Shown: in pieces, positions 1,091 through 28,984 of the stretch
Layout of the letters: each line of letters begins with the position of its first letter
Position numbering within the stretch: the first letter of the stretch is position 1
Origin: a virus
DNA: 33,523 bases
Direction: 5' to 3' (one strand)
Virus record (IMG/VR): IMGVR_UViG_3300030098_005358
Location: 1-33,523 of that record
The notes under the pieces: model-generated
Database searches by the model: none
What the model was told of the DNA's origin: nothing
What the model saw: the letters and a program-made list of their open reading frames with translations, nothing else
Made by a program: the position numbers and the translations under genes

Positions 1091-1515
1091 TTACCATCTC
1101 CATTTCATACCTACGGTTCCTTGCCAATCGGTGGCACCGCCCCACTCGGCTCCGGCTGACAACTGGGCGGTGAGGTCGAAGTCTCGCCCAAGTGTATGTC
1201 TAACAGCAGCACCAGCATCCCACCTATGATGATTCCCAGTAAGAGAAAGATCAAGGCCGCCGCTATCACCAGAACGTAGTACAACAGGGGGAATTATTCT
1301 GAGGGCTTTTTTCCCTGAGAAGCGGCTGCCTCCAGGGCAGCCCGCTTCTGCTTAGCTACATCTTCCATGCTGATACCAAGCACACCGGACACAGCACCAA
1401 GGACTGAAGCAATGATAGCTTCGGTCGGAAGGTTAGGGAAGAAGTGCTTAGCCAGCACGGGGAGGAGGGCTGCTAATACAGACAGCCACAGCTTACGACT
1501 CTTCATCTTATCCAT
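1091..1515 (-). CDS. Putative -1 frameshift fusion: holin-like protein with a beta-rich extension
   Basis: Proposed join: 1515-1306 in frame zero (70 residues, ending GKK), then 1306-1091 in the -1 frame (71 residues), giving about 141 residues. The shift site is A AAA AAG at 1312-1306, exactly in phase. The -1 frame is open from 1351 to its TAA at 1093-1091, but has no ATG, GTG or TTG before the TTG at 1162, so it needs another entry route. Its codons are T-ending and resemble the neighbours (GGT, GAT, CTT, TCT, GCT). The stop is immediately followed by the ATG of the next gene. The extension reads like alternating beta strands (DLTAQLSAGAEW, GTVGMKWRW) and ends in an aromatic residue, as many outer-membrane beta-barrel ends do. 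Alternatives are a sequencing indel, a non-canonical start such as ATT at 1294, or a decayed gene. Expression is not shown. Confidence 0.55.
1111..1287 (-). other. Unassigned hydrophobic reading overlapping the frameshift extension
   Basis: After the TAA of the 73-residue gene, the same frame is open to TAG at 1113-1111. It would encode a long hydrophobic stretch (with LIFLLLGIIIGG) and then a Pro/Ser-rich tail with one Cys. Possible starts are TTG at 1284 or GTG at 1269, but neither has a Shine-Dalgarno site, and codon use is less like the neighbours than that of the -1 frame. It could be a nested lysis peptide in the style of overlapping spanin genes, or a by-product of the other frame. Low confidence. 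Confidence 0.2.
1294..1515 (-). CDS. Holin-like small membrane protein (zero-frame product)
   Basis: This is a 73-residue protein with a short positive N-terminus (MDKMKSRK). It has a hydrophobic segment at about residues 9-26, a second at about 34-50 (IIASVLGAVSGVLGIS), and a charged helical tail ending KKPSE. Two membrane segments, small size and a place two genes after an M15 endolysin suggest a holin or related lysis membrane protein, though no specific holin family is recognised. The ATG overlaps the previous stop (TAATG), with AAGGA about 10 bases upstream. Near the 3' end, codons GGA AAA AAG form an in-phase A AAA AAG slippery heptamer, so this may be only the shorter of two products; see the fusion entry. 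Confidence 0.75.
   Translation of the reverse strand: MDKMKSRKLWLSVLAALLPVLAKHFFPNLPTEAIIASVLGAVSGVLGISMEDVAKQKRAALEAAASQGKKPSE
1306..1312 (-). promoter_or_regulatory. Candidate -1 ribosomal frameshift slippery site A AAA AAG
   Basis: Read on the minus strand, codons CAG GGA AAA AAG CCC contain the heptamer A AAA AAG in the zero-frame phase required for simultaneous P- and A-site slippage. It is the same heptamer used in Escherichia coli dnaX. An internal Shine-Dalgarno-like GGAGG lies about 16 bases upstream (1333-1329). A weak downstream stem is possible, CAGAA (1301-1297) with TTCTG (1274-1270). The zero-frame stop TAA lies 9 bases after the heptamer. Confidence 0.55.
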
Positions 1516-2057
1516 TAGTATGAATCCTTTTTCTTTTTAGTTTTGCGTGGAGCAGGTACTTCTCTGCGATCGTAAGGCTTACTGGTATCTCGGACATACC
1601 ACTTTTCTCTTCCCATCTCCTCATCAGTAACTTTGTAAGGGTTATTGATAACAGGATACTTTTCTTTAGATTTAGGCAAGGGCACAAGTGCTGGGCGTTT
1701 AGATTTTTGACCCATTCTCTTTTTGACTGCCTTCATCTTATCACCACGAAGCCGATCGAAGTAAGCCTTTTTCTTTTCGATGTCAGCCTTGTTAGGCGTG
1801 CGCTCACTAGGACGAAGGCGGGCAGGGTTGCTAGGATCAGCAGCTACCCGGACATTGTAATCACCTCGTGCCCTGTCACGCTGCTCTCGAGTGGTCTCTT
1901 TGATCTTGCCTGAATCAGCAGCCTTGGCTTTTGATTTCTTTCTCTTGACGGGACCGCCTGCGCTACCCCTTCTGGTTTGACCAGCGACAACACTTGTTCC
2001 GCCGACCAGTCCTGACACAGCAGACTTGCCTCTTTTTTTGCTTTCTTTATAAGCCAT
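1515..2057 (-). CDS. Basic Lys/Arg-rich protein of unknown function
   Basis: This 180-residue protein is very rich in Lys and Arg, with a Gly/Ser/Val patch near the N-terminus (GLVGGTSVVAG) and a run of basic, low-complexity segments (KRKKSKAKAA, KKRMGQKSKRP). The C-terminal part has more order-promoting residues (YPVINNPYKVTDEEMGREKWYVRDTSKPY) before a KKKK tail. No membrane span or catalytic motif is visible. The ATG overlaps the endolysin stop as TAATG and its own stop overlaps the holin-like ATG the same way, so it is translated within the lysis cassette. It may bind nucleic acid or be a minor virion protein. It resembles the 236-residue protein two genes downstream in composition, not clearly in sequence. 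Confidence 0.7.
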   Translation of the reverse strand: MAYKESKKRGKSAVSGLVGGTSVVAGQTRRGSAGGPVKRKKSKAKAADSGKIKETTREQRDRARGDYNVRVAADPSNPARLRPSERTPNKADIEKKKAYFDRLRGDKMKAVKKRMGQKSKRPALVPLPKSKEKYPVINNPYKVTDEEMGREKWYVRDTSKPYDRREVPAPRKTKKKKDSY

Positions 2058-2443
2058 TACTTCTCGCTCCGTTGATCCCAGCGTGCTGGGTTTAATCTCA
2101 TGTCATAGTGAGTGAAGGTATCGTACCTTCCAAGCCCACCGTTAGGAATAACATTCTGTTCCATCATACCAAGGATATGATGCTGCAACTGAGTAGGTCC
2201 TACCTCTATTGCCTTAAGGTCAGCCGCAGTATTTTCTAAGTGCTGACTATTCTTTGCCCCGCCAACGTTGGCGTTGTGCTTGGGGCAGCGATAAGAGGAG
2301 GTAATCTTCAACGGACCTACGATGTTTCGGATACGTTGCAGTGTCCATGCCAGGTGTCGAGCAACATGCTCGTTTCCAAGCGCCCTGCAACACTTGCAAC
2401 GGAACTCGTTTGGATGAAAGTTGGGAGGCCAGCCGGGTACCAT
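2057..2443 (-). CDS. M15-family peptidase endolysin (peptidoglycan L,D/D,D-peptidase)
   Basis: This 128-residue protein has the zinc-peptidase pattern of the M15 carboxypeptidase-like family. The motif SQHLENTAADL at residues 66-76 supplies His68 and Asp75, and FTHYD at 110-114 supplies the third metal ligand, His112. The stretch ITSSYRCPKHNANVGGAKNSQH is typical of the M15_3 fold seen in phage endolysins, which cut peptide bonds in peptidoglycan. The length fits single-domain members. There is no signal peptide, so export would need a holin, and the holin-like gene lies two genes downstream. N-terminal CKCC (residues 16-19) is unusual and could be an extra metal or disulfide site. The ATG overlaps the upstream stop by one base (TGATG). 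Confidence 0.88.
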   Translation of the reverse strand: MVPGWPPNFHPNEFRCKCCRALGNEHVARHLAWTLQRIRNIVGPLKITSSYRCPKHNANVGGAKNSQHLENTAADLKAIEVGPTQLQHHILGMMEQNVIPNGGLGRYDTFTHYDMRLNPARWDQRSEK

Positions 2444-12312: not shown

Positions 12313-15156
12313 TCAGCTTCCTTCTTTCGGGGCTTTAGGTCCTGGTTTATCAGCGACACCTTTAACTTTTTTAGCTTTGTCTTTCGCAGCAAGGGCTTTG
12401 ATCTTTTTGTAGTTCTTCATGATCTTTGTAACGTAGTTGTAAGTCTCACCGTCACGGGTTTTTATCTTCCACCTTAGCCTGCCCTTTGAATCTTTTAATT
12501 GTTTTCCGTCTTTTCCTTTTAGAGGAATCTTATTTCCTTTTGCGTCCTTTTGAAAAATCTTATTTCCTTTTGCGTCCTTTAAAGGAACCGATCGTTTTGG
12601 ATTCATCAAGCCACTAAAAAACGTACCGTCTTTTCTTTTCTTAGAGTTAATTTCAAACCCTTCATTTCTAAACGCACTAAGTCCGGCATTGTAAACAGCC
12701 ATGATCTTTTCGTTTTCTTTGGGGTCGTTCTTTTTAATTTCCTTAAACTTAATAAGCCGCTTACGAAGAAGAGCTAAAAACTTAGCTCCCGATTCAGCCG
12801 CTACCGACTCATCAAAAAGGGTCTTAAAGTCTTCAGGTTTGCCACCAATATCAAGCCACGCTGAAGGTGTCATCTGAGTTAGGCCGATAGCATATTGATC
12901 TGATACAGCCTTGTCATGGTACTTACTTTCCTGGTCAGCAAGGGCAACATACAAGTCAGGATCAATCTTGTATTTTTTAGCAGCAGACCGAAGAAGCTCA
13001 ATCCTTCTTGCTTTGTCTTTTGCGGGTACAGCAGGAAGCCTTTTCTTTTTGTTTTCAGAGCCAACCGCCATTGCCTTATAGGTTGGGAACTCGTGGGTTA
13101 CTGTTTTGTCACCGATCTTTTGCTTAATTTTTTGCGTGCCGACTGGCTTGGGATAAGTAGACTTGGGCTTAGCCGGAGGGCCTTGGAATGTTCCTTTTGC
13201 TTTTTGCGCAGCAGCCAGCATTCGCGCTCTGGTCTTAGCTCTAGTCGGCTCTGTCCTGCTAAACCACCTTTGATAATCACTACCCCAAGCCTTTCGTCTT
13301 TCATCATGAACCATGCCTGGGCCTTTTATCTTACCAAAGTAATCAGACCCAGGAAGCGTACTGTAACCAGGAAACGCAAGCTCAATATTTTCTTCAGAAA
13401 TCCCAGCTTGCCTCATAGCTACAGATGCTTTTAAGGATGGGTCATTTTCTCCTTCTGGCGGATGAAAATAATCTTCTGCTGGGATCAAGCGCGGAGATAA
13501 CTTGCCACCACGTCTTAATCTTGGATCTGGTAATTTTGGCTCAAGGTCTTTGTCTTGAATTCTTTTTTGCTTTGCTAGTGTACCCGGAGCAAGAAACGGT
13601 TCATCTACTACAGTGGCACCTTGAGTAAATTTATCGTCCCTAGGTCTAGACTGAGTAAGTCCACCTGCTGAGGCTGCCCTGCTCCAAGCATCTTGCTGAC
13701 TGCTTTCTGTTGCAGTTGTCGTAGCATTAGGCCGAAGCGACATAGGCTGCATGGTATCTCTATTAACTGGAGTGCTGTACTGCTCAGCACTATCTTCTGT
13801 TGCGGCCCCAGAGACAGGAACCTCACCACCTCTTTTGCGGATTTCTGCATCAAGACTAATCTGCTCGTTTTTCTCTTCGCTTGATAGCTTAGCTACTTTT
13901 TCTTTTCTGTTGAGTTCATCTAGCCGCTCTCGCATCTCCCCTACTTCATCAGATGACTTCTTATCTGCTGCAACTTGGGCCTGCGCGGCTCGTCTTCCTG
14001 ATTGGCCTAGGTAAACAGGGAGGTTCCCACTAGCTTGGGCAATGGGTCCACTAAGCTCATTAATATCAAGCTCCAAACCAGGAAGCCTTGGATCATTCGG
14101 GTTGCGAGCGGCAATGGTGCGATACTGATCAACAAGCCGAGAATATTTCCCAACATCTGCTGCTGCTTGATCGAGATGGGGATTGCTTAGCATACCAAGC
14201 AAAGCCGTTGCTCTGGCGTTTAAGCCCTGGCGAATAGCTTTAGCTACACTTGGTTTGTTTTCTGCGACAGCAGCCCTAAGAGCTTCGCTTTCTTCTGCTG
14301 TTGGTTTAACTGCTACACTAATAACTGTTTTATCTCCGGAATCATCACGATATAGAGTTAGCAATCCATTAGATGACTCAACAAGAGCAGCAGCTTGATC
14401 CGCTGTTAGGTCACGGGGATTAAACCCAGCTTTTAAAAGCTCGTTAGTTGCAACAGCATCTCTTAGATATACTGCTGCATTCAAATCATTAATAATTGGC
14501 TCGTTGGTTTTATGGCGAGCGCGCCAATCAGCAAGCTGCGTCTGTCCTAGCTTGGGAGCAGCAGCCGCTTTTGGTAACGGACTAGCAGAAGCAAGGCGTT
14601 TGTAGTCTTCGCTTATAAGCCGTGACGGATCACGAGTAGGATCACCAAGAAGACGCCCGCTGCCAGGACGATCCCATGCACGACGCATCTGTTCATAGCC
14701 TGCTGCACGATCGTCCACACCCGAAAGAACTCTTGTAAGAATTTTTCCTTGCTCATCGAGCATAGGTTTACCATCTCGCCCAATAACAGGAACGCGCCTG
14801 TCTCGAGCCCCTGCCACTCGGCGCTGACCGGACCCATACGACTCCTGATCCAAGATGGCTCTTTCTTGCTCATTGAGCGTAAGGTATTGCGTACCCCACA
14901 TTCCAGTGTCTTTACCAAGTCGCGGTTTACCATCTGGTCCAACTTCTTTGCGCGCTCTTGCTAAGGCAGCACGCCCTCTAGAAAATCGAGAAACGGCATC
15001 AGCAACCGTTCCGCCTACACGGTCAATAACATCTACGCCAACCTTCAGTCCTTCAGGCGTAGCAAAGCGTTCGCCGACACGCTGGCTTTGCGTTGGTTTA
15101 AATTCGGCGGCTTCAAAGTTGGCCTTAAATACTGATGGAGGTAGAATTCTTGCCAT
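12313..15156 (-). CDS. Internal virion protein with C-terminal lytic transglycosylase domain
   Basis: This is a 947-residue protein if started at ATG 15156. A GTG four codons upstream is possible, but the ATG has GGGA 6 bases before it and sits 2 bases after the previous stop. The first about 700 residues are mostly helical and low in recognisable motifs. At about 720-840 there is an SLT/goose-lysozyme-like fold: IDPDLYVALADQESKY with the catalytic Glu near residue 743, then YAIGLTQMTPSAW, then KIMAVYNAGLSAF. This activity opens peptidoglycan locally during DNA entry in T7 (gp16) and related phages. Here the domain is at the C-terminus and in a separate protein from the giant neighbour. After it comes a Lys/Gly/Asp repeat region (KDAKGNKI) and a basic tail. 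Confidence 0.88.
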   Translation of the reverse strand: MARILPPSVFKANFEAAEFKPTQSQRVGERFATPEGLKVGVDVIDRVGGTVADAVSRFSRGRAALARARKEVGPDGKPRLGKDTGMWGTQYLTLNEQERAILDQESYGSGQRRVAGARDRRVPVIGRDGKPMLDEQGKILTRVLSGVDDRAAGYEQMRRAWDRPGSGRLLGDPTRDPSRLISEDYKRLASASPLPKAAAAPKLGQTQLADWRARHKTNEPIINDLNAAVYLRDAVATNELLKAGFNPRDLTADQAAALVESSNGLLTLYRDDSGDKTVISVAVKPTAEESEALRAAVAENKPSVAKAIRQGLNARATALLGMLSNPHLDQAAADVGKYSRLVDQYRTIAARNPNDPRLPGLELDINELSGPIAQASGNLPVYLGQSGRRAAQAQVAADKKSSDEVGEMRERLDELNRKEKVAKLSSEEKNEQISLDAEIRKRGGEVPVSGAATEDSAEQYSTPVNRDTMQPMSLRPNATTTATESSQQDAWSRAASAGGLTQSRPRDDKFTQGATVVDEPFLAPGTLAKQKRIQDKDLEPKLPDPRLRRGGKLSPRLIPAEDYFHPPEGENDPSLKASVAMRQAGISEENIELAFPGYSTLPGSDYFGKIKGPGMVHDERRKAWGSDYQRWFSRTEPTRAKTRARMLAAAQKAKGTFQGPPAKPKSTYPKPVGTQKIKQKIGDKTVTHEFPTYKAMAVGSENKKKRLPAVPAKDKARRIELLRSAAKKYKIDPDLYVALADQESKYHDKAVSDQYAIGLTQMTPSAWLDIGGKPEDFKTLFDESVAAESGAKFLALLRKRLIKFKEIKKNDPKENEKIMAVYNAGLSAFRNEGFEINSKKRKDGTFFSGLMNPKRSVPLKDAKGNKIFQKDAKGNKIPLKGKDGKQLKDSKGRLRWKIKTRDGETYNYVTKIMKNYKKIKALAAKDKAKKVKGVADKPGPKAPKEGS
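12526..12580 (-). repeat. Two copies of a 25-base direct repeat, 30-base period
   Basis: The same 25 bases occur at 12526-12550 and 12556-12580 in the transglycosylase gene. They encode tandem KDAKGNKI units, followed by degenerate KGKDGKQLKDSKG. The period of 10 codons keeps the frame. This looks like a recent tandem duplication in a flexible basic linker. Confidence 0.85.
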
Positions 15157-15158
15157 GA

Positions 15159-15779
15159 TTAATCCCACATACTTTCAATGCGATCTTTTCCTTCGCCTCT
15201 AAGATAGTAGTCTTCTAACTGTTTAGCAGCCCTAGGACTCTTAACTCTGATGCGGGCAATCATAGCGCGAATTTTACGATAGGCTGCCGCTTCATCATCA
15301 TCCCAAAAGCCCTGAGCATCTTGAATGGCTTGCTCTGCTTCTGTCTGGCCTTCAGCATAAGCCTCTTGATAATCTGAACTTTCATCGCCTTGTTGTGCAG
15401 CGTACTCTTGAGCTTCAACCGTGGACTGTAAAGCGGCTTGTTCTGCTGAAAGAATCTTATCAGTATCTTGTGCTCTCTTTTGAATGCCAGCCATTTCAGC
15501 ATCTCGACCCACTTGTCCGGCTGCGGCGATTGCACCGCCGCCGCCGCCCATACCAGGTTGCATACCCATTGCCGTAGCCTGAGAAGCGCCATACCGAATA
15601 GCTTTTTGGTTTTGGGCAGCTTGTTCCCGGAGCTTATCTACAGCACCAGAAGCCGCTTTGGCCTGTCCCATCTTAGCTTCAATGGCTAGTTTTCTTCTTT
15701 TACTTTTATCGCCGTAAGCATCGGTTGCACCTGTCCAGGCGCTACCGGTAGATAAAAAGTCTTTTGCTGCTTTTGCCAT
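15159..15779 (-). CDS. Small helical internal virion protein
   Basis: This 206-residue protein is rich in Ala, Gln and Glu with a Met/Gly patch (GMQPGMGGGGGAIAAAGQ, about residues 70-87), followed by long heptad-like helices and an acidic stretch (FWDDDEAAAYRKIRAMIARI). This composition and its position just before the transglycosylase protein match the small ejection-complex proteins of T7-like phages (gp14, about 196 residues), though there is no sequence match I can name. The ATG lies one base after the previous stop, and the gene ends 2 bases before the next ATG. Probable role: inner core or DNA-ejection channel (inference). Confidence 0.65.
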   Translation of the reverse strand: MAKAAKDFLSTGSAWTGATDAYGDKSKRRKLAIEAKMGQAKAASGAVDKLREQAAQNQKAIRYGASQATAMGMQPGMGGGGGAIAAAGQVGRDAEMAGIQKRAQDTDKILSAEQAALQSTVEAQEYAAQQGDESSDYQEAYAEGQTEAEQAIQDAQGFWDDDEAAAYRKIRAMIARIRVKSPRAAKQLEDYYLRGEGKDRIESMWD

Positions 15780-18301: not shown

Positions 18302-18930
18302 TAGGTTATCTCGCCGCCAATGTTTGTGACTGTAGCTGCGTGAGCATGACCAGAATAATTAGCGCCTAAACCAACAAAAACACTGCCCGCTACCGCATTG
18401 AGATCCTGGATAGCTAACCCAGGAGAGTTAATCATAGACCCATCAAGACCATTAGATTGAAATACACAGTTATTAAAAACAGCTTTAGCTCCTGAGTTAA
18501 CTAAAACAAAACAAAGAATACTCGTTGCTGCATTAGAAGCTTCAGCAGATGCGCTTCTTTGAAAAACGCAATTATTAAATACAACTTTAGCTGGGGATTC
18601 AATAGCAACTAAATGAGAACTATTGTTTCCAGAGTTAGTCTGTTTGAAAACTAAATTTTCTATTTTCGATGTGGCTTTAATTGTGGCTAACCCTGTTACT
18701 ATAGCCCCTGGCTCCCCTTGAAGGGAGCCCAGGGGCTTTTCAAGGACAAGCTTTTGATGTGTGCCAGGACCAAAAATAAATGAGTTATGAGACGGCAGGG
18801 TTTCTGCAAGCGCTGTCCCAGAAAAAACTCGTGATACATCTCCATAATACATAGGAGAAACAACAGAGTTAAGACTTTCGTTTGCTGTGTTTCCTAAGTC
18901 TTCTAGGTTGCTAAAAGAAAAACTACTCAT
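18301..18930 (-). CDS. Tail protein with beta-helix-like repeats
   Basis: This 209-residue protein has two copies of a VFNNCVFQ rung, at residues about 117-124 and 151-158. They are embedded in pectate-lyase-like alternation (IENLVFKQTNSGN, GSVFVGLGANYSGHAHA). Parallel beta-helices of this kind form trimeric tailspikes and fibres. At about 200 residues it is too short for a full tailspike, so it could be a small fibre or an adaptor. It overlaps the nozzle gene (ATGA) and the 311-residue gene (TAATG). No catalytic residues can be picked. A hairpin is folded into codons about 64-76 (18703-18737). Confidence 0.65.
   Translation of the reverse strand: MSSFSFSNLEDLGNTANESLNSVVSPMYYGDVSRVFSGTALAETLPSHNSFIFGPGTHQKLVLEKPLGSLQGEPGAIVTGLATIKATSKIENLVFKQTNSGNNSSHLVAIESPAKVVFNNCVFQRSASAEASNAATSILCFVLVNSGAKAVFNNCVFQSNGLDGSMINSPGLAIQDLNAVAGSVFVGLGANYSGHAHAATVTNIGGEIT
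18703..18737. repeat. Intragenic GC-rich hairpin
   Basis: The arms AGCCCCTGGCTCCCCTT (18703-18719) and AAGGGAGCCCAGGGGCT (18721-18737) pair over about 16 bp with two single-base bulges and almost no loop. It lies inside the 209-residue tail gene. There is no T-tract in the minus direction. Confidence 0.6.
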
Positions 18931-21737
18931 CGACCAGTTCTCCTACGCCCACCAGCTTTACGGAAAACACCCATTAAACTTTGAAGGGATAAGCCTTGGG
19001 CTTTATCTTGAATAAAACCAAATACCATATAGCTAATTCGCTGGCCCTTAACGCTATCAGAAGTTGCAATTATATCTGTTTGCTGGTCATCAATTAAATA
19101 ATTACCATGAGCACTATCTGTAGTGCTTCCCCATTTCGCTTCACCGGAAAAAATCCGTTGAGACATAGCGCCACTCGAGTTTCTAAACCGAGATCGAAGT
19201 GAGTTTTTATTTACAATTCGTTGTATGTTTTCATCGTAGTCAACGATTTGGGAAGTAAACTCTTTAGAGTCAGATCCTAAAATTACATTGTACAAACCCC
19301 AAAGCCAATTTGGAACAACTCTATTTGCTTGAACCCCACCACCTTTTGAATTGAGCTTTGCGTAAATACCTCTAGCTTTAATTTGTTGAGCGCCGGCTTC
19401 TTCTTCGTCGGACTTATAAGCCCAGTCAACAACTTGAACTTTAGCGTTGTCATTATGAGAATCCGCTGAACCAATAAAACTTTTAGTCCAAACAAGAGCA
19501 GCCGCAGGTTTAGCTACTGGCCCTACCTGGGTTGCTATAGTGATCTCAGAAAGCACAGGGTAAATACCCATACCGGTAACACTGTTTGCCGTTGCTTTTG
19601 AAAAACGAATTTCAATTACAGGGTTCTTAACATTTCTACCTAAATTAAAAGCAGGATCAAAACTCCAACCACTAGCCACAGCAGCGTTACCGTCTATATC
19701 AATAGAGATATATTCACCTGTTGCGCTTGCTGTTCCAGCAGCATCAGTTCGCCTTGCAAAACCAGCACCACTGGCAAAGATAGCAGGACCAGAAACTAAA
19801 CGCTCTGTAGGCCAACGAACATTGACATTGTTTGAACCATCTTGCTCAGGATTCCATTCGCTTTCATCAAAACGAAAACGCAGTTGGAAACGAGTAAAAG
19901 GGACCGCACTAAACCTAGGGGGAACAGCAGAAATAGGAAGATAATAATAAGTATTACCAGACGTATAATCTTCTTCTTTGTAGGGCTCGTCGAAATAATA
20001 ACAACCATTTAACAGGCCCTTATCAAAAGGAATAGCCGGCACATATTTACCAGAACCTAAACGGTAATCCTCTTTATAGCTTGAACGATCAAGAGCCCCC
20101 CCATAACCCAACTCACAAAAAATAAAATTGCTGCCTTTAGCAGGGTCGTTTTTGGGTACTATAGCACCAGGAGGGTAGGCATTTGGCACATCGGTAACAA
20201 CTGTATAGCTACTATCTGAAATGTCGTCTTTGTTAATTCCGCAAACACAATAAAAATCTTTTGTTGTTCCTATAACCCACGGCTCTATTAGGTTACTTGA
20301 AGAAGTAACTGTTGCGTTTCCTGCCGCATCAATACCGGCATTGCTTTCCATAGGCCACCATGACCAGATACCACTAAATGCCCAGCTTCCATTAAGATTA
20401 GGACAACCCATAAGGAGTGCTCGTTTTTCGTGGTTATAAGCAAGAGTTACTCGATCATCGCTAAACTCTAATAATGTTCTTGGGGGGTTTACATTATCAA
20501 TATTTACCCAGCCATTGTTTGCTTCATAATAGCTAGTCATAGGATTCGTCATAATCCCATGCCCACCAAAAAAAGCTCGTATAGGTTCGGACAACTCTCG
20601 AATAGATGTCCCATTAGAAGTAGAAAAAATACCTGAATAAGCTACCCAAGCAAGATCATCTTCCATCATTGTAATTGCTTGCTGCCCAATACAGCCAACG
20701 CTTTGGCTTACATTGATAGGTGGCCGCCCTTGTGAAATGATTGTACCCTCACTTGGAACATACAAATACATTTCATGTTTGGTAAAAATAACTAAGTTAC
20801 CTTTAAACTCATGCATTGCCGTAACCTTGTTTGACGAAGGCACGTTAATAAAGTTTGTTGATATAATGTTGTTTGGTCGGCCTGGGTCAGAAAAGAAAAT
20901 TTCATATTCAGTTGCGTATGCAATCCGACCACGAAAACTTGTAGCTGCAACAATTTTAGATATTTGACTCCCTGAAACATAAACAAACCCATCTGAAAAA
21001 ATACCGTCAGAAAAGTTTATTTTTTCAATAAGTGCAGATTCAGAATGCCCACTAGCAAAATTAAACATAGAATCTGTTTGTGTTTGCATGTGTCTTTTAG
21101 AATGAAAGTCAGCAGGTCGATAAACAAAAACCCCTGCACTTGGGGAGCCAAAATACAAAAAGCCGCGCAAAGAAAAGAAAAACCAATTTGCTTGTAAGCT
21201 ACCAGAAACGATTGATTCATTATCAACATTAAACGCTGTTTCGTAGCTACCGTACCATTGACTAGGAAAACTTCCCGACTCAACAACTTGAGGAACTAAA
21301 GACGACTTAGCACCAAATGTAGAAGTTTTATTAACAAGAACTTCTTCCCAGCTTCGGCCTGTAGTTAAGTCAAAAATACGAACAACGTAATAGAGGCCGA
21401 TTGATCCAACCCTTTGGTCAGCGCCAAGAGAACCCGATTGACCACGAAACAAAAAAACAGAAACAACCTGTTTGTTTCCAAAGTTTGTTTCTATGTAGCT
21501 GCTGCCTAAATGTTTTTCGTATCCAAACTGGTTTGATTCAAAACTGTTTGTAGAACCAGATTTATAATTAACACTATTGCCAAGCGTTGTATCAAGCTCA
21601 GCGCGCACACCCCAACCCGGACGAACAGAAATAGAACCCTGAGCAAGCCACAGGTTTTGTGCCCATGTCCCACGAACAACACCGTCTTGCTCAACACCTT
21701 TTGTTAAGAGTTCTCTTTCACTTCCTGGTGTTGCCAT
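18927..21737 (-). CDS. Nozzle-like tail protein (tail tubular B / P22 gp10-like role)
   Basis: This 936-residue, beta-rich protein immediately follows the head-tail adaptor, the usual place of the nozzle. The start (VRGTWAQNLWLAQGSISVRPGWG) and the repeated propeller-like phrases fit the nozzle architecture of podoviruses: IAYATEYEIFFSDPGRPNNI, VTAMHEFKGNLVIFTKHEMY and IWSWWPMESNAG. It is longer than T7 gp12 (about 794) and P22 gp10 (about 472). The C-terminus is basic (RKAGGRRRTGR). Function and fold are inferred from order and motifs, without an alignment. Confidence 0.75.
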   Translation of the reverse strand: MATPGSERELLTKGVEQDGVVRGTWAQNLWLAQGSISVRPGWGVRAELDTTLGNSVNYKSGSTNSFESNQFGYEKHLGSSYIETNFGNKQVVSVFLFRGQSGSLGADQRVGSIGLYYVVRIFDLTTGRSWEEVLVNKTSTFGAKSSLVPQVVESGSFPSQWYGSYETAFNVDNESIVSGSLQANWFFFSLRGFLYFGSPSAGVFVYRPADFHSKRHMQTQTDSMFNFASGHSESALIEKINFSDGIFSDGFVYVSGSQISKIVAATSFRGRIAYATEYEIFFSDPGRPNNIISTNFINVPSSNKVTAMHEFKGNLVIFTKHEMYLYVPSEGTIISQGRPPINVSQSVGCIGQQAITMMEDDLAWVAYSGIFSTSNGTSIRELSEPIRAFFGGHGIMTNPMTSYYEANNGWVNIDNVNPPRTLLEFSDDRVTLAYNHEKRALLMGCPNLNGSWAFSGIWSWWPMESNAGIDAAGNATVTSSSNLIEPWVIGTTKDFYCVCGINKDDISDSSYTVVTDVPNAYPPGAIVPKNDPAKGSNFIFCELGYGGALDRSSYKEDYRLGSGKYVPAIPFDKGLLNGCYYFDEPYKEEDYTSGNTYYYLPISAVPPRFSAVPFTRFQLRFRFDESEWNPEQDGSNNVNVRWPTERLVSGPAIFASGAGFARRTDAAGTASATGEYISIDIDGNAAVASGWSFDPAFNLGRNVKNPVIEIRFSKATANSVTGMGIYPVLSEITIATQVGPVAKPAAALVWTKSFIGSADSHNDNAKVQVVDWAYKSDEEEAGAQQIKARGIYAKLNSKGGGVQANRVVPNWLWGLYNVILGSDSKEFTSQIVDYDENIQRIVNKNSLRSRFRNSSGAMSQRIFSGEAKWGSTTDSAHGNYLIDDQQTDIIATSDSVKGQRISYMVFGFIQDKAQGLSLQSLMGVFRKAGGRRRTGR

Positions 21738-21740
21738 GTT

Positions 21741-22397
21741 TTAAATCCAGTTATCGTATTCACTAACGTATTGAGAGCCTTCTCGACTTCGGCCTGACTC
21801 TAAGAATTTATTAAGGTCTTTTACTTTTCGCTCTGTCTCTTGAAGCAATGCAATATTATCAGCGCCATCACGAATAGCATAACGACGATAGGCATACAGC
21901 GGAATCATATCATGGAAACCATCAAGGTCATCAATATAATCTGAGGCAGCAGCAAAGTTTACATCATGAAACGGAACATACTCTAAGCGGAAAGCCGCAG
22001 TATCCGTAGCATAGGTAATGATCTTTTTGTTTACGAAGGTATAGCACCAGGTATTAAGCGTTCGCTCGGAAGGCATTGAATCGAGATAGCGAATAACCTC
22101 GTTGTTGGTTAGGTCGTTAACCCGAGCTAGGCGAAGCATTCTCTCGAGCTTGTTTGGCGCTGCCGCAGCAGAACCCAAGAGAGCAGGAGTTGTTGCTGTG
22201 AGATCGAGAATGCCGCTCGTAGGCATCGTAAACAAAAACTCTTTAGAATAAATAAACGGATCAATATCGCAAACAACACGACGAAAATCGTTATAACCTT
22301 CTTTAAGGTATAAAGTTATTTGTGCGTCCGTAAGAAATGTTGTGTCTGATTCATCGGCGTAAGATTTAAACATCTCCCTTACATCACCAGTGTTCAT
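21741..22397 (-). CDS. Head-tail adaptor
   Basis: This 218-residue, mainly helical protein begins with a DVREMFKSYADESDTTFLTDAQ-type region. It continues ITLYLKEGYNDFRRVV, a pattern common in podovirus adaptors that sit under the portal (the role of T7 gp11 and P22 gp4). A second helical part, containing IPLYAYRRYAIRDGADN followed by ETERKVKDLNKFL, matches the same type. The gene overlaps the portal stop (ATGA) and is followed after 3 bases by the nozzle gene, giving the standard portal-adaptor-nozzle order. Confidence 0.8.
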   Translation of the reverse strand: MNTGDVREMFKSYADESDTTFLTDAQITLYLKEGYNDFRRVVCDIDPFIYSKEFLFTMPTSGILDLTATTPALLGSAAAAPNKLERMLRLARVNDLTNNEVIRYLDSMPSERTLNTWCYTFVNKKIITYATDTAAFRLEYVPFHDVNFAAASDYIDDLDGFHDMIPLYAYRRYAIRDGADNIALLQETERKVKDLNKFLESGRSREGSQYVSEYDNWI

Positions 22398-27072: not shown

Positions 27073-28665
27073 TTATAAGAGATCACCAATTGCTCCTAAG
27101 ATTTCATCGCCGCTGTCTTTAGCAAACTCAGAATTCTTAGCAGATTTCCACATTCTTCCTGTGTGCATTTCCCATTGAAGCACCTCGGCAATGCCTCGGG
27201 GCTTATATGATTTCTGCACCTCTTCTTCAACTTCATCTACTTGGTCAAGGCCCATTAATGCAAGACCTGTTGCCATGACCATATCATCATGCTGCCCTGG
27301 GGCGGCTTCAACTTTACCTCGGCCGTTGTATTGTAAACGGTTTGCCTCAGTCCGAAAACGGGCGCAAGTTGCACCGCACCATTCTCTAGTTATGTGCTCA
27401 TACAAACGATTAAAAAGCATGGGCCGGCTTTTTGAGGTTGTCATAAAACCTAACCGATTTTGCCAGGCGTTGGTCACTTTATCAAAGCTAGCTGTTCGAT
27501 ACATGTAAGGATAACCTTCGCCCTGAAGGTAGTCCTGGACAGCAAGGCCGTAGCTGTTTGTTTCAATCACTGTAAACGCATTGTACCGACGAGCATACTT
27601 TAAAACTTTGCGGCCATATAAGCTCGGAGGAATTCTTTCGTAGTAACTCGCGGCCATGCGGATGTTTTTGCGGTCGGTAACATCCAAAATCATAAACGCA
27701 CTGTAATCGCCACCAGGACTACCCGTCGCTGTATCAACACCCATTGTGTAAATACCAAACTTTTTAGGCTCTAGGTATTCAATGTAGCCCTCTTTGAAAT
27801 CTAAAACATGAAAAGAATTCGGGAAGAAAGGAGAGCCCGACGCAACAAAGGCATCGGTTGCTTGGGCAGGGTATTCCTGGTTGAAAATGTTCCAATTGTT
27901 CGCACAGGCCGTGCGCAACGTGTTAACCATCCAGTTGAATTGGGGTTTGCTCAGCTTGTTTTTGTAGCTGTATTCAAGCTCTTCTTCGGTCGGGTCGTTA
28001 AATTTTGGCTTATCTAGCGTATAATCCGTGTCCATACGCCAGCCCAGAAACATTTTGCTGTAACCGCTTTCGCTGCTCCATAAATCGTAAGCTTCGTTCA
28101 TTCCGTTGGCGGTAGACTCAAGAACAATCTTTGCGCTCTTTGTTCGAGCACCGAACAAAGACGCAATAGTTTTTTCCATGTTGTTCCAGAACGCATACTC
28201 GGATGCATGAATTAAATTGTAGGTGCTACCACGAAAACTTTGGCTCGATGCGGAACCAACCCGGATACTACTGCCCGTAATAAATTTAATTTCGTTTTCT
28301 CGAGAGCGCGTTGTCTCAAGCTTTAGATGTTTAGGCAGGTGCTTGTGAAACAAATGGTAAATTTCAAAGATTTTCTTCACCGCTTCATCGGTGTGCGCCA
28401 CAATCGCCGTGCGGGTGTACTTGTTAAACAGTGTGTGCCAAAAAAAATACGCCGCAATTATCGTCGTGCTGCCTAGCTGGCGCGCTTTAAGCAGCATCAT
28501 GTGGTCATTATCACGAATAGAATCCACAATTTTCATTTGAGCCTGGTTAGGGACCAAAGGCTTTAGCTCGGACTCTTTGGTGATGATCTTTAGGTATTTT
28601 TCACAGAAATAAGAAAAATCCTCGCGACAACGAAGAATGTCTTGGCGCAAATCATCGCTGTTCAT
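27073..28665 (-). CDS. Large terminase subunit (packaging ATPase and nuclease)
   Basis: This is a 530-residue protein from ATG 28665. A TTG two codons earlier is in frame, but GGAG lies only 3 bases before it versus about 10 before the ATG. The ATPase domain has the Walker A-like KARQLGST (about residues 60-67) and a Walker B with its catalytic acid in IHASEYAF (about 152-159). The RNase H-like nuclease domain shows GVDTATGSPGGDYSAF (Asp near 311), VIETNSYG (about 367-374) and PGQHDDMVMA (about 457-466). It pumps DNA through the portal and cuts it. The gene overlaps the 110-residue gene by 14 bases. This is the most secure call in the window. Confidence 0.96.
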   Translation of the reverse strand: MNSDDLRQDILRCREDFSYFCEKYLKIITKESELKPLVPNQAQMKIVDSIRDNDHMMLLKARQLGSTTIIAAYFFWHTLFNKYTRTAIVAHTDEAVKKIFEIYHLFHKHLPKHLKLETTRSRENEIKFITGSSIRVGSASSQSFRGSTYNLIHASEYAFWNNMEKTIASLFGARTKSAKIVLESTANGMNEAYDLWSSESGYSKMFLGWRMDTDYTLDKPKFNDPTEEELEYSYKNKLSKPQFNWMVNTLRTACANNWNIFNQEYPAQATDAFVASGSPFFPNSFHVLDFKEGYIEYLEPKKFGIYTMGVDTATGSPGGDYSAFMILDVTDRKNIRMAASYYERIPPSLYGRKVLKYARRYNAFTVIETNSYGLAVQDYLQGEGYPYMYRTASFDKVTNAWQNRLGFMTTSKSRPMLFNRLYEHITREWCGATCARFRTEANRLQYNGRGKVEAAPGQHDDMVMATGLALMGLDQVDEVEEEVQKSYKPRGIAEVLQWEMHTGRMWKSAKNSEFAKDSGDEILGAIGDLL

Positions 28666-28984
28666 TAGCAAGAATCTCCAGAATGATCTTTAGATTGCCC
28701 TCAACGTCCTCAAGCTCTTTCTCGATTGTGTCCAGTTTGCTGCCAATACCCTTGATTACCTCAAGGCGCTCATCGTTGTAGGTCGAGATTACCTGGTCGT
28801 ACCGATCTCGCAGTGCGGCCTCACGGTCAATGTGACCTTGCGCCTGCTCCCGTAGCTGAGCTTGGAAGTTGTCCGTTAAATCGTCTAGCCGCTTAGAGGT
28901 TTTTATAAAAATCCAGAAAATTGCTGCTGCGGCAATCCCGAGAGGCCCGAACCCGGCGATAATTTCTATAAACTGAGAATCCAT
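28652..28984 (-). CDS. Membrane-anchored coiled-coil protein between the terminase genes
   Basis: This 110-residue protein has one hydrophobic segment at about residues 7-27 (FGPLGIAAAAIFWIFI), then KTSKR and about 80 residues of charged coiled coil. This is the layout both of i-spanins and of the UviB/BhlA group of small holin-like proteins. T7 places its Rz-type gene 18.5 between the terminase subunits, so an inner-membrane spanin fits by position. The positive residues after the span favour a cytoplasmic C-terminus, which argues for the BhlA-like option. No nested lipoprotein (Rz1) frame was recognised. The function remains open between these. Confidence 0.65.
   Translation of the reverse strand: MDSQFIEIIAGFGPLGIAAAAIFWIFIKTSKRLDDLTDNFQAQLREQAQGHIDREAALRDRYDQVISTYNDERLEVIKGIGSKLDTIEKELEDVEGNLKIILEILANEQR

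Follow-up and report, generated by a model that had tools for sequence, protein, structure and literature searches.

How many membrane proteins does a phage draw from a short holin-like gene whose last codons hold a slippery heptamer, and what would the product of the shifted frame do? The question arises from a stretch of the window, by which we mean the whole of the DNA analysed here, the 33,523-nt IMG/VR virus record IMGVR_UViG_3300030098_005358 (positions 1 to 33,523). In this record ~425 bases near an endolysin gene appear to encode three membrane proteins in an uncultured phage family. End repeats are absent from the 33.5-kb window, and its large terminase shows 28% identity to that of Roseobacter phage CRP-7. 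Searches of INPHARED with DNA and protein, and of the GTDB genomes, returned no relative, so that neither a cultured phage nor a named host can be assigned. Profile scans of IMG/VR yielded 46 further contigs carrying the same cassette, bringing the set, together with the window, to 47 records.

The endolysin, a Peptidase M15 of 128 aa (2057..2443, minus strand; Pfam PF08291 4e-18, PHROG 894 endolysin 2.6e-30), is encoded two genes upstream of the holin-like gene, and the relatives too have endolysin genes (M15, Amidase_3) upstream of the cassette. One of them, L122, carries an Amidase_3 endolysin (L122:1436-2041) where others have Peptidase M15, a change of endolysin type next to the same holin cassette. 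The cassette is flanked by two basic proteins, both very rich in lysine and without a family match (380-1090 and 1515-2057, both on the minus strand). Elsewhere in the window, a 110-aa protein with an N-terminal TM helix and a coiled coil adjoins the large terminase (28652-28984, minus strand); by eye it resembles BhlA or an i-spanin, it has no family match, and a similar protein is found at L101:4887-5261.

The holin-like gene itself (1294..1515, minus strand, with its frame-0 TAA at 1294..1296) encodes 73 aa with a basic N-terminus, two hydrophobic helices (about residues 8-27 and 30-51) and a charged C-terminal helix. AlphaFold2 (AF2) predicts, with modest confidence (pLDDT 71), a helical hairpin of helices 2-25 and 31-67, the second of which extends to residue 67, just short of the slip site. 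The window's protein matches PHROG 9987 (holin) weakly (E 0.014), and the holin-like label of the preliminary description draws its support from distant relatives: the five tested among L196-L205 match this family at E 2.4e-14 to 1.7e-5 (2.4e-14 to 4e-7 for L196, L201 and L203). A KLKSRKLW start, two helices and a G-x-x-x-D motif are common to PHROG 9987 holins and the cassette protein. With two TM helices and an endolysin nearby, both features of class II holins, the short product is likely a class II holin-like protein of the PHROG 9987 lineage. Unlike the cassette, the PHROG 9987-type relatives examined outside its clade (L196-L205) have neither heptamer nor extension. The gene that follows in L203-L205 overlaps the stop codon of the holin gene, and its product is a small 46-aa lipoprotein with a lipobox (MKKIIALSLLSFGLASCGSV...; L203:4001-4330, and likewise in L204 and L205), a possible outer-membrane lysis factor; that an outer-membrane-directed product occupies the slot of the extension in these records is suggestive only.

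We next consider the heptamer. A AAA AAG (1306..1312, minus strand) lies in phase for -1 slippage, with three sense codons between it and the TAA of the holin-like gene. The extension in the -1 frame (1091..1306, minus strand) comprises 71 codons and a TAA: the frame is open over 1306..1094 and closes at 1093..1091, abutting the ATG at 1090, and a fusion of 70 + 71 residues would measure 141 aa. The preliminary description had given the coordinates, the phase of the heptamer, the 71-codon open frame and a stop directly before the next ATG, all of which proved exact; its statement that the extension uses codons like the neighbouring genes did not hold, as third-position T falls from 0.69 over the first ~29 codons of the domain to 0.12 over its remainder, the other genes standing at 0.35. 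These other genes of the window also served as a control, with 43 in-phase X XXY YYZ heptamers in 9,672 codons. None of the 43 opens a -1 frame of at least 65 codons, which argues that the pairing of heptamer and open frame is not due to chance.

It had also been proposed that related phages should carry the same kind of site and open -1 frame, and this is borne out in all 47 records, where an in-phase X XXY YYZ heptamer stands at the same place, just before the holin stop, in seven sequence forms and a single phase (GGGAAAG 16, AAAAAAG 14, CCCTTTG 8, GGGAAAC 4, AAACCCC 3, AAACCCT 1 and CCCTTTA 1; L029, one of the eight CCCTTTG records, can also be read as T TTG GGC, the form under which it was tallied). 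For a fixed amino-acid sequence, an in-phase heptamer would arise somewhere in the final 16 codons with a probability of 0.01-0.03 for most lineages, and with a higher one where KK (0.14) or NP (0.3) is encoded. Since several independent lineages each have a heptamer whose form differs between them, it appears to be slippage itself that is conserved. Mean pair identity reaches 0.58 in the -1 frame but 0.37 and 0.34 in the two remaining frames. As judged from these alignments, a programmed -1 frameshift under selection, with a conserved -1 product, is near-certain, and the comparison shows the holin-like gene and its predicted frameshifted extension to be conserved coding sequence joined by a conserved recoding signal.

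A candidate stimulator lies 16 nt upstream of the heptamer, a Shine-Dalgarno-like GGAGG (1329..1333, minus strand). Of the 34 sequences tabulated, 33 have a GAGG that precedes the heptamer by 7-16 nt, and the Glu codon at this site is GAG, whereas the gene's other Glu codons are mostly GAA. Downstream, strong hairpins had seemed to be present in several heptamer classes, and shuffling controls left only the A AAC CC(C/T) clade, in which a near-perfect 14-pair hairpin begins 5 nt after the heptamer (L012, L013, L036 and L106), with two compensatory pairs and z scores of -4.2 to -7.6 at 45 nt. By the same controls no significant downstream structure was found in the other clades, the window's included, and RNAalifold gave no convincing covariation in them. 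In E. coli, A_AAA_AAG and G_GGA_AAG are among the most efficient heptamers when stimulators are present (PMC4066793); a hairpin confined to the clade with a less usual motif would fit this efficiency. A AAC CC(C/T), which is outside the listed efficient E. coli motifs, could together with its hairpin provide a model for structure-driven frameshifting in bacteria.

What does the extension encode? Its length is 71-78 residues across the records, with 35-93% identity to that of the window. AlphaFold2 run on an alignment of 28 sequences, and as for all our models on a single chain, predicts a four-stranded antiparallel sheet (pLDDT 86.6, pTM 0.65; strands 15-24, 28-39, 43-54 and 60-69, core pLDDT 92-96), with every strand hydrophobic on one face and polar on the other. 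The last eight residues, TVGMKWRW in the window, fit the pattern xxGxx-hydrophobic-x-aromatic in 46 of 46 sequences. The model and the invariant RW C-terminus agree with the earlier reading of alternating beta strands that end in an aromatic residue. Trimeric autotransporter adhesins (TAAs) and most bacterial outer-membrane proteins end in a beta-signal of this kind, whose final residue is aromatic (PMC5670179). Pfam, PHROG, NCBIfam and PDB sequence searches assigned the extension to no family. Fold comparison with the PDB gave weak matches throughout, with sugar N-methyltransferases ranked above the autotransporter anchors Hia (E 0.04), AtaA (0.09) and YadA (0.3; probability 0.96-1.00 for the three), and the BFVD matches include several phage YadA-type anchors. 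Homology to the latter was considered and rejected: the C-terminal strands align in register, but the profile-profile probability is negligible (hhalign 0.5%), and Pfam, YadA_anchor included, gives no match at E<=1. As sequence homology was sought and not found, the likeness to these anchors is best read as one of design rather than of demonstrated descent.

A third product may be nested within the extension. Past the holin stop, frame 0 stays open for 60 codons that specify a hydrophobic helix, a feature absent from the preliminary description; the ORF (1111..1284, minus strand; 57 aa from a TTG, start uncertain) comprises one TM segment and a hydrophilic tail. Of the synonymous shuffles that preserve the extension, 0-1% attain the hydrophobicity observed for this ORF in most lineages, and up to 14% do so in the exceptional ones. 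In the window's clade the available starts are limited to TTG and CTG and have no Shine-Dalgarno sequence, so translation there would probably require reinitiation after the holin stop. The divergent relatives L098, L099, L122 and L114 have stops that interrupt frame 0, yet keep an ATG ahead of the helix. As a caution, a few other genes of the window likewise contain extended open +1 frames with TM-like stretches (12313-15168, 18927-21737 and 21741-22397), which may be chance or further nested genes.

Each part of this arrangement has a counterpart in known systems, and none of these matches the whole. The tail-assembly chaperones of the lambda G/GT type likewise have an X XXY YYZ heptamer close to the 3' end of a short ORF, from whose single start a short and an extended protein are made, and the sites described include GGGAAAC and AAAAAAC (PMC3556154, PMC3483164). 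Unlike them, the cassette shifts a holin-like gene near an endolysin, and its extension is a predicted sheet with an outer-membrane-type end; the open literature searched, subscription papers being outside its scope, contained no account of a holin with -1 frameshifting. The unimolecular spanin T1 gp11 is a single protein with a beta-rich domain that has been proposed to act on both membranes (PMC6139136), and in both respects the 141-aa form would resemble it. However, the latter lacks the N-terminal lipoprotein signal and the C-terminal TM helix, for which reason we do not file it as a u-spanin; its order is also reversed, with the helices first and the beta part last, and it would be made by frameshift. 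In the anchors of Hia, YadA and AtaA, three subunits build a 12-strand barrel (PMC5670179). Like the predicted cassette product, they have a helix leading into four antiparallel strands, with an aromatic residue at the C-terminus, whereas the cassette product shows no detectable sequence homology to them, has no signal peptide or passenger, and is joined to a holin. Finally, the nested ORF recalls embedded Rz/Rz1, in which a lysis gene is nested in another frame of its neighbour (PMC6139136), and the MS2 lysis gene, which also lies in another frame of a neighbouring gene. In contrast to both, the outer frame of the cassette is itself reached by frameshifting, and, in contrast to Rz/Rz1, the nested product would be a TM mini-protein. 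It has no lipobox, and elsewhere in the window only lipobox candidates out of the gene frames were seen. Because the defining features that we tested fail, the cassette is placed neither with the u-spanins nor with the embedded spanins.

Taken together, we consider it somewhat probable that this is a compact lysis locus with three overlapping products, in which a minor fusion takes over the part of a lipoprotein spanin at the outer membrane; a lipobox scan of the window for an o-spanin or a two-component spanin gave nothing convincing. Normal translation would yield the two-helix holin of 73 residues, a protein of PHROG 9987 type, while some ribosomes, aided by the upstream GGAGG, would slip by -1 on A AAA AAG and produce the 141-residue form, whose second helix would continue into the four-stranded sheet with its outer-membrane-protein C-terminal signal. 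Ribosomes that end at the holin TAA probably reinitiate downstream in frame 0, giving the small single-helix membrane protein. The minor long form may join holin assemblies in the inner membrane and present its beta sheets there; once the holin has opened the membrane and the endolysin has cleared the wall, these sheets could engage and disrupt the outer membrane, perhaps arranged as a trimeric barrel. The long form would in this way replace the lipoprotein spanin, at a stoichiometry set by the slip rate. Both the outer-membrane role and this order of events are what we infer from the features of the predicted products. More tentatively, the long form could represent a new outer-membrane disruption protein, a holin-frameshifted spanin-like factor with a beta-barrel segment in place of the lipoprotein anchor and a third lysis protein nested within it.

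Several other explanations have to be weighed at the level of the reading frames. An indel from sequencing or assembly, or gene decay, would be conceivable in the window's clade, where the junction contains a homopolymer run, an indel-prone place; the same frame relation is kept in the 46 other contigs, most of which have no junction homopolymer, and none of the 47 records holds the two parts in one frame, which refutes this explanation and reduces its probability to almost nil. Translation of the extension alone, without fusion, from a non-standard start (ATA, ATT or CTG) or by reinitiation could draw on the nearby holin stop and on the ATA or ATT found 3-4 codons past the heptamer in the window's clade, in which, as had been noted for the window, no ATG, GTG or TTG precedes the conserved domain. 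These ATA/ATT codons are not conserved (L122, L124 and L114 have none), nor is any other independent start, and what is conserved instead is the in-phase heptamer in its seven forms. Furthermore, in L106 and L099 a -1-frame stop only 3-6 codons ahead of the heptamer means that the open frame starts right at the heptamer; separate translation is therefore very unlikely. Less readily dismissed, though still improbable, is the idea that the nested ORF is not a gene and owes its hydrophobicity to T-rich third positions maintained for RNA shape or codon choice. It would accommodate the missing good start or Shine-Dalgarno sequence in the window's clade, the TM-like +1 frames in a few other window genes and the lack of synonymous constraint in the hydrophilic tail. 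Yet third-position T in the extension codons amounts to 0.45-0.77 along the helix and drops to 0.06-0.21 beyond it, the skew ending where the helix ends in every lineage; four-fold sites with an unchanged amino acid share their third base in 65% of comparisons over the helix and in 37% after it, so that the constrained sites are confined to the helix overlap; ATG starts keep the helix in the four records with upstream stops; and no general RNA structure was found. The nested helix is thus very probably selected, and a membrane mini-protein is likely a product of this frame.

The main rival to the outer-membrane reading concerns function: the long form would be a lysis timer (antiholin), a holin bearing a bulky beta domain in the cytoplasm, which mixes into holin assemblies and delays them, with the slip rate as the clock, and within this scheme the nested TM protein could instead be the antiholin. 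Since both ends of the holin-like part are positively charged, the positive-inside rule places the C-terminus, and with it the beta domain, in the cytoplasm, as a timer would have it; from there the outer membrane would be reachable only via the holin lesion or a flip. The distance from the second helix to the first strand, about 30 residues, is also short for the periplasm. In addition, two products with a common N-terminus recall dual-start holins, and an endolysin gene is near. On the other hand, a timer has no need for a C-terminus of the outer-membrane type that is invariant in 46 of 46 sequences, nor for strands with one lipid-type face, and we regard this function as rather unlikely.

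In tailed phages, programmed -1 frameshifting is known mainly from tail chaperones and capsid proteins. A frameshift in a holin gene, if true, would link the stoichiometry of lysis proteins to ribosome slippage. A survey of 677 phages found 91, about one in seven, without a recognisable spanin (PMC6139136), and an outer-membrane beta-domain supplied by frameshifting, which ordinary gene calling misses, is one place where the missing factor may hide. Because the cassette spans only about 425 bp, its steps are directly testable, and a three-product arrangement of this kind, if true, would be a new route to the phage host-lysis kit.
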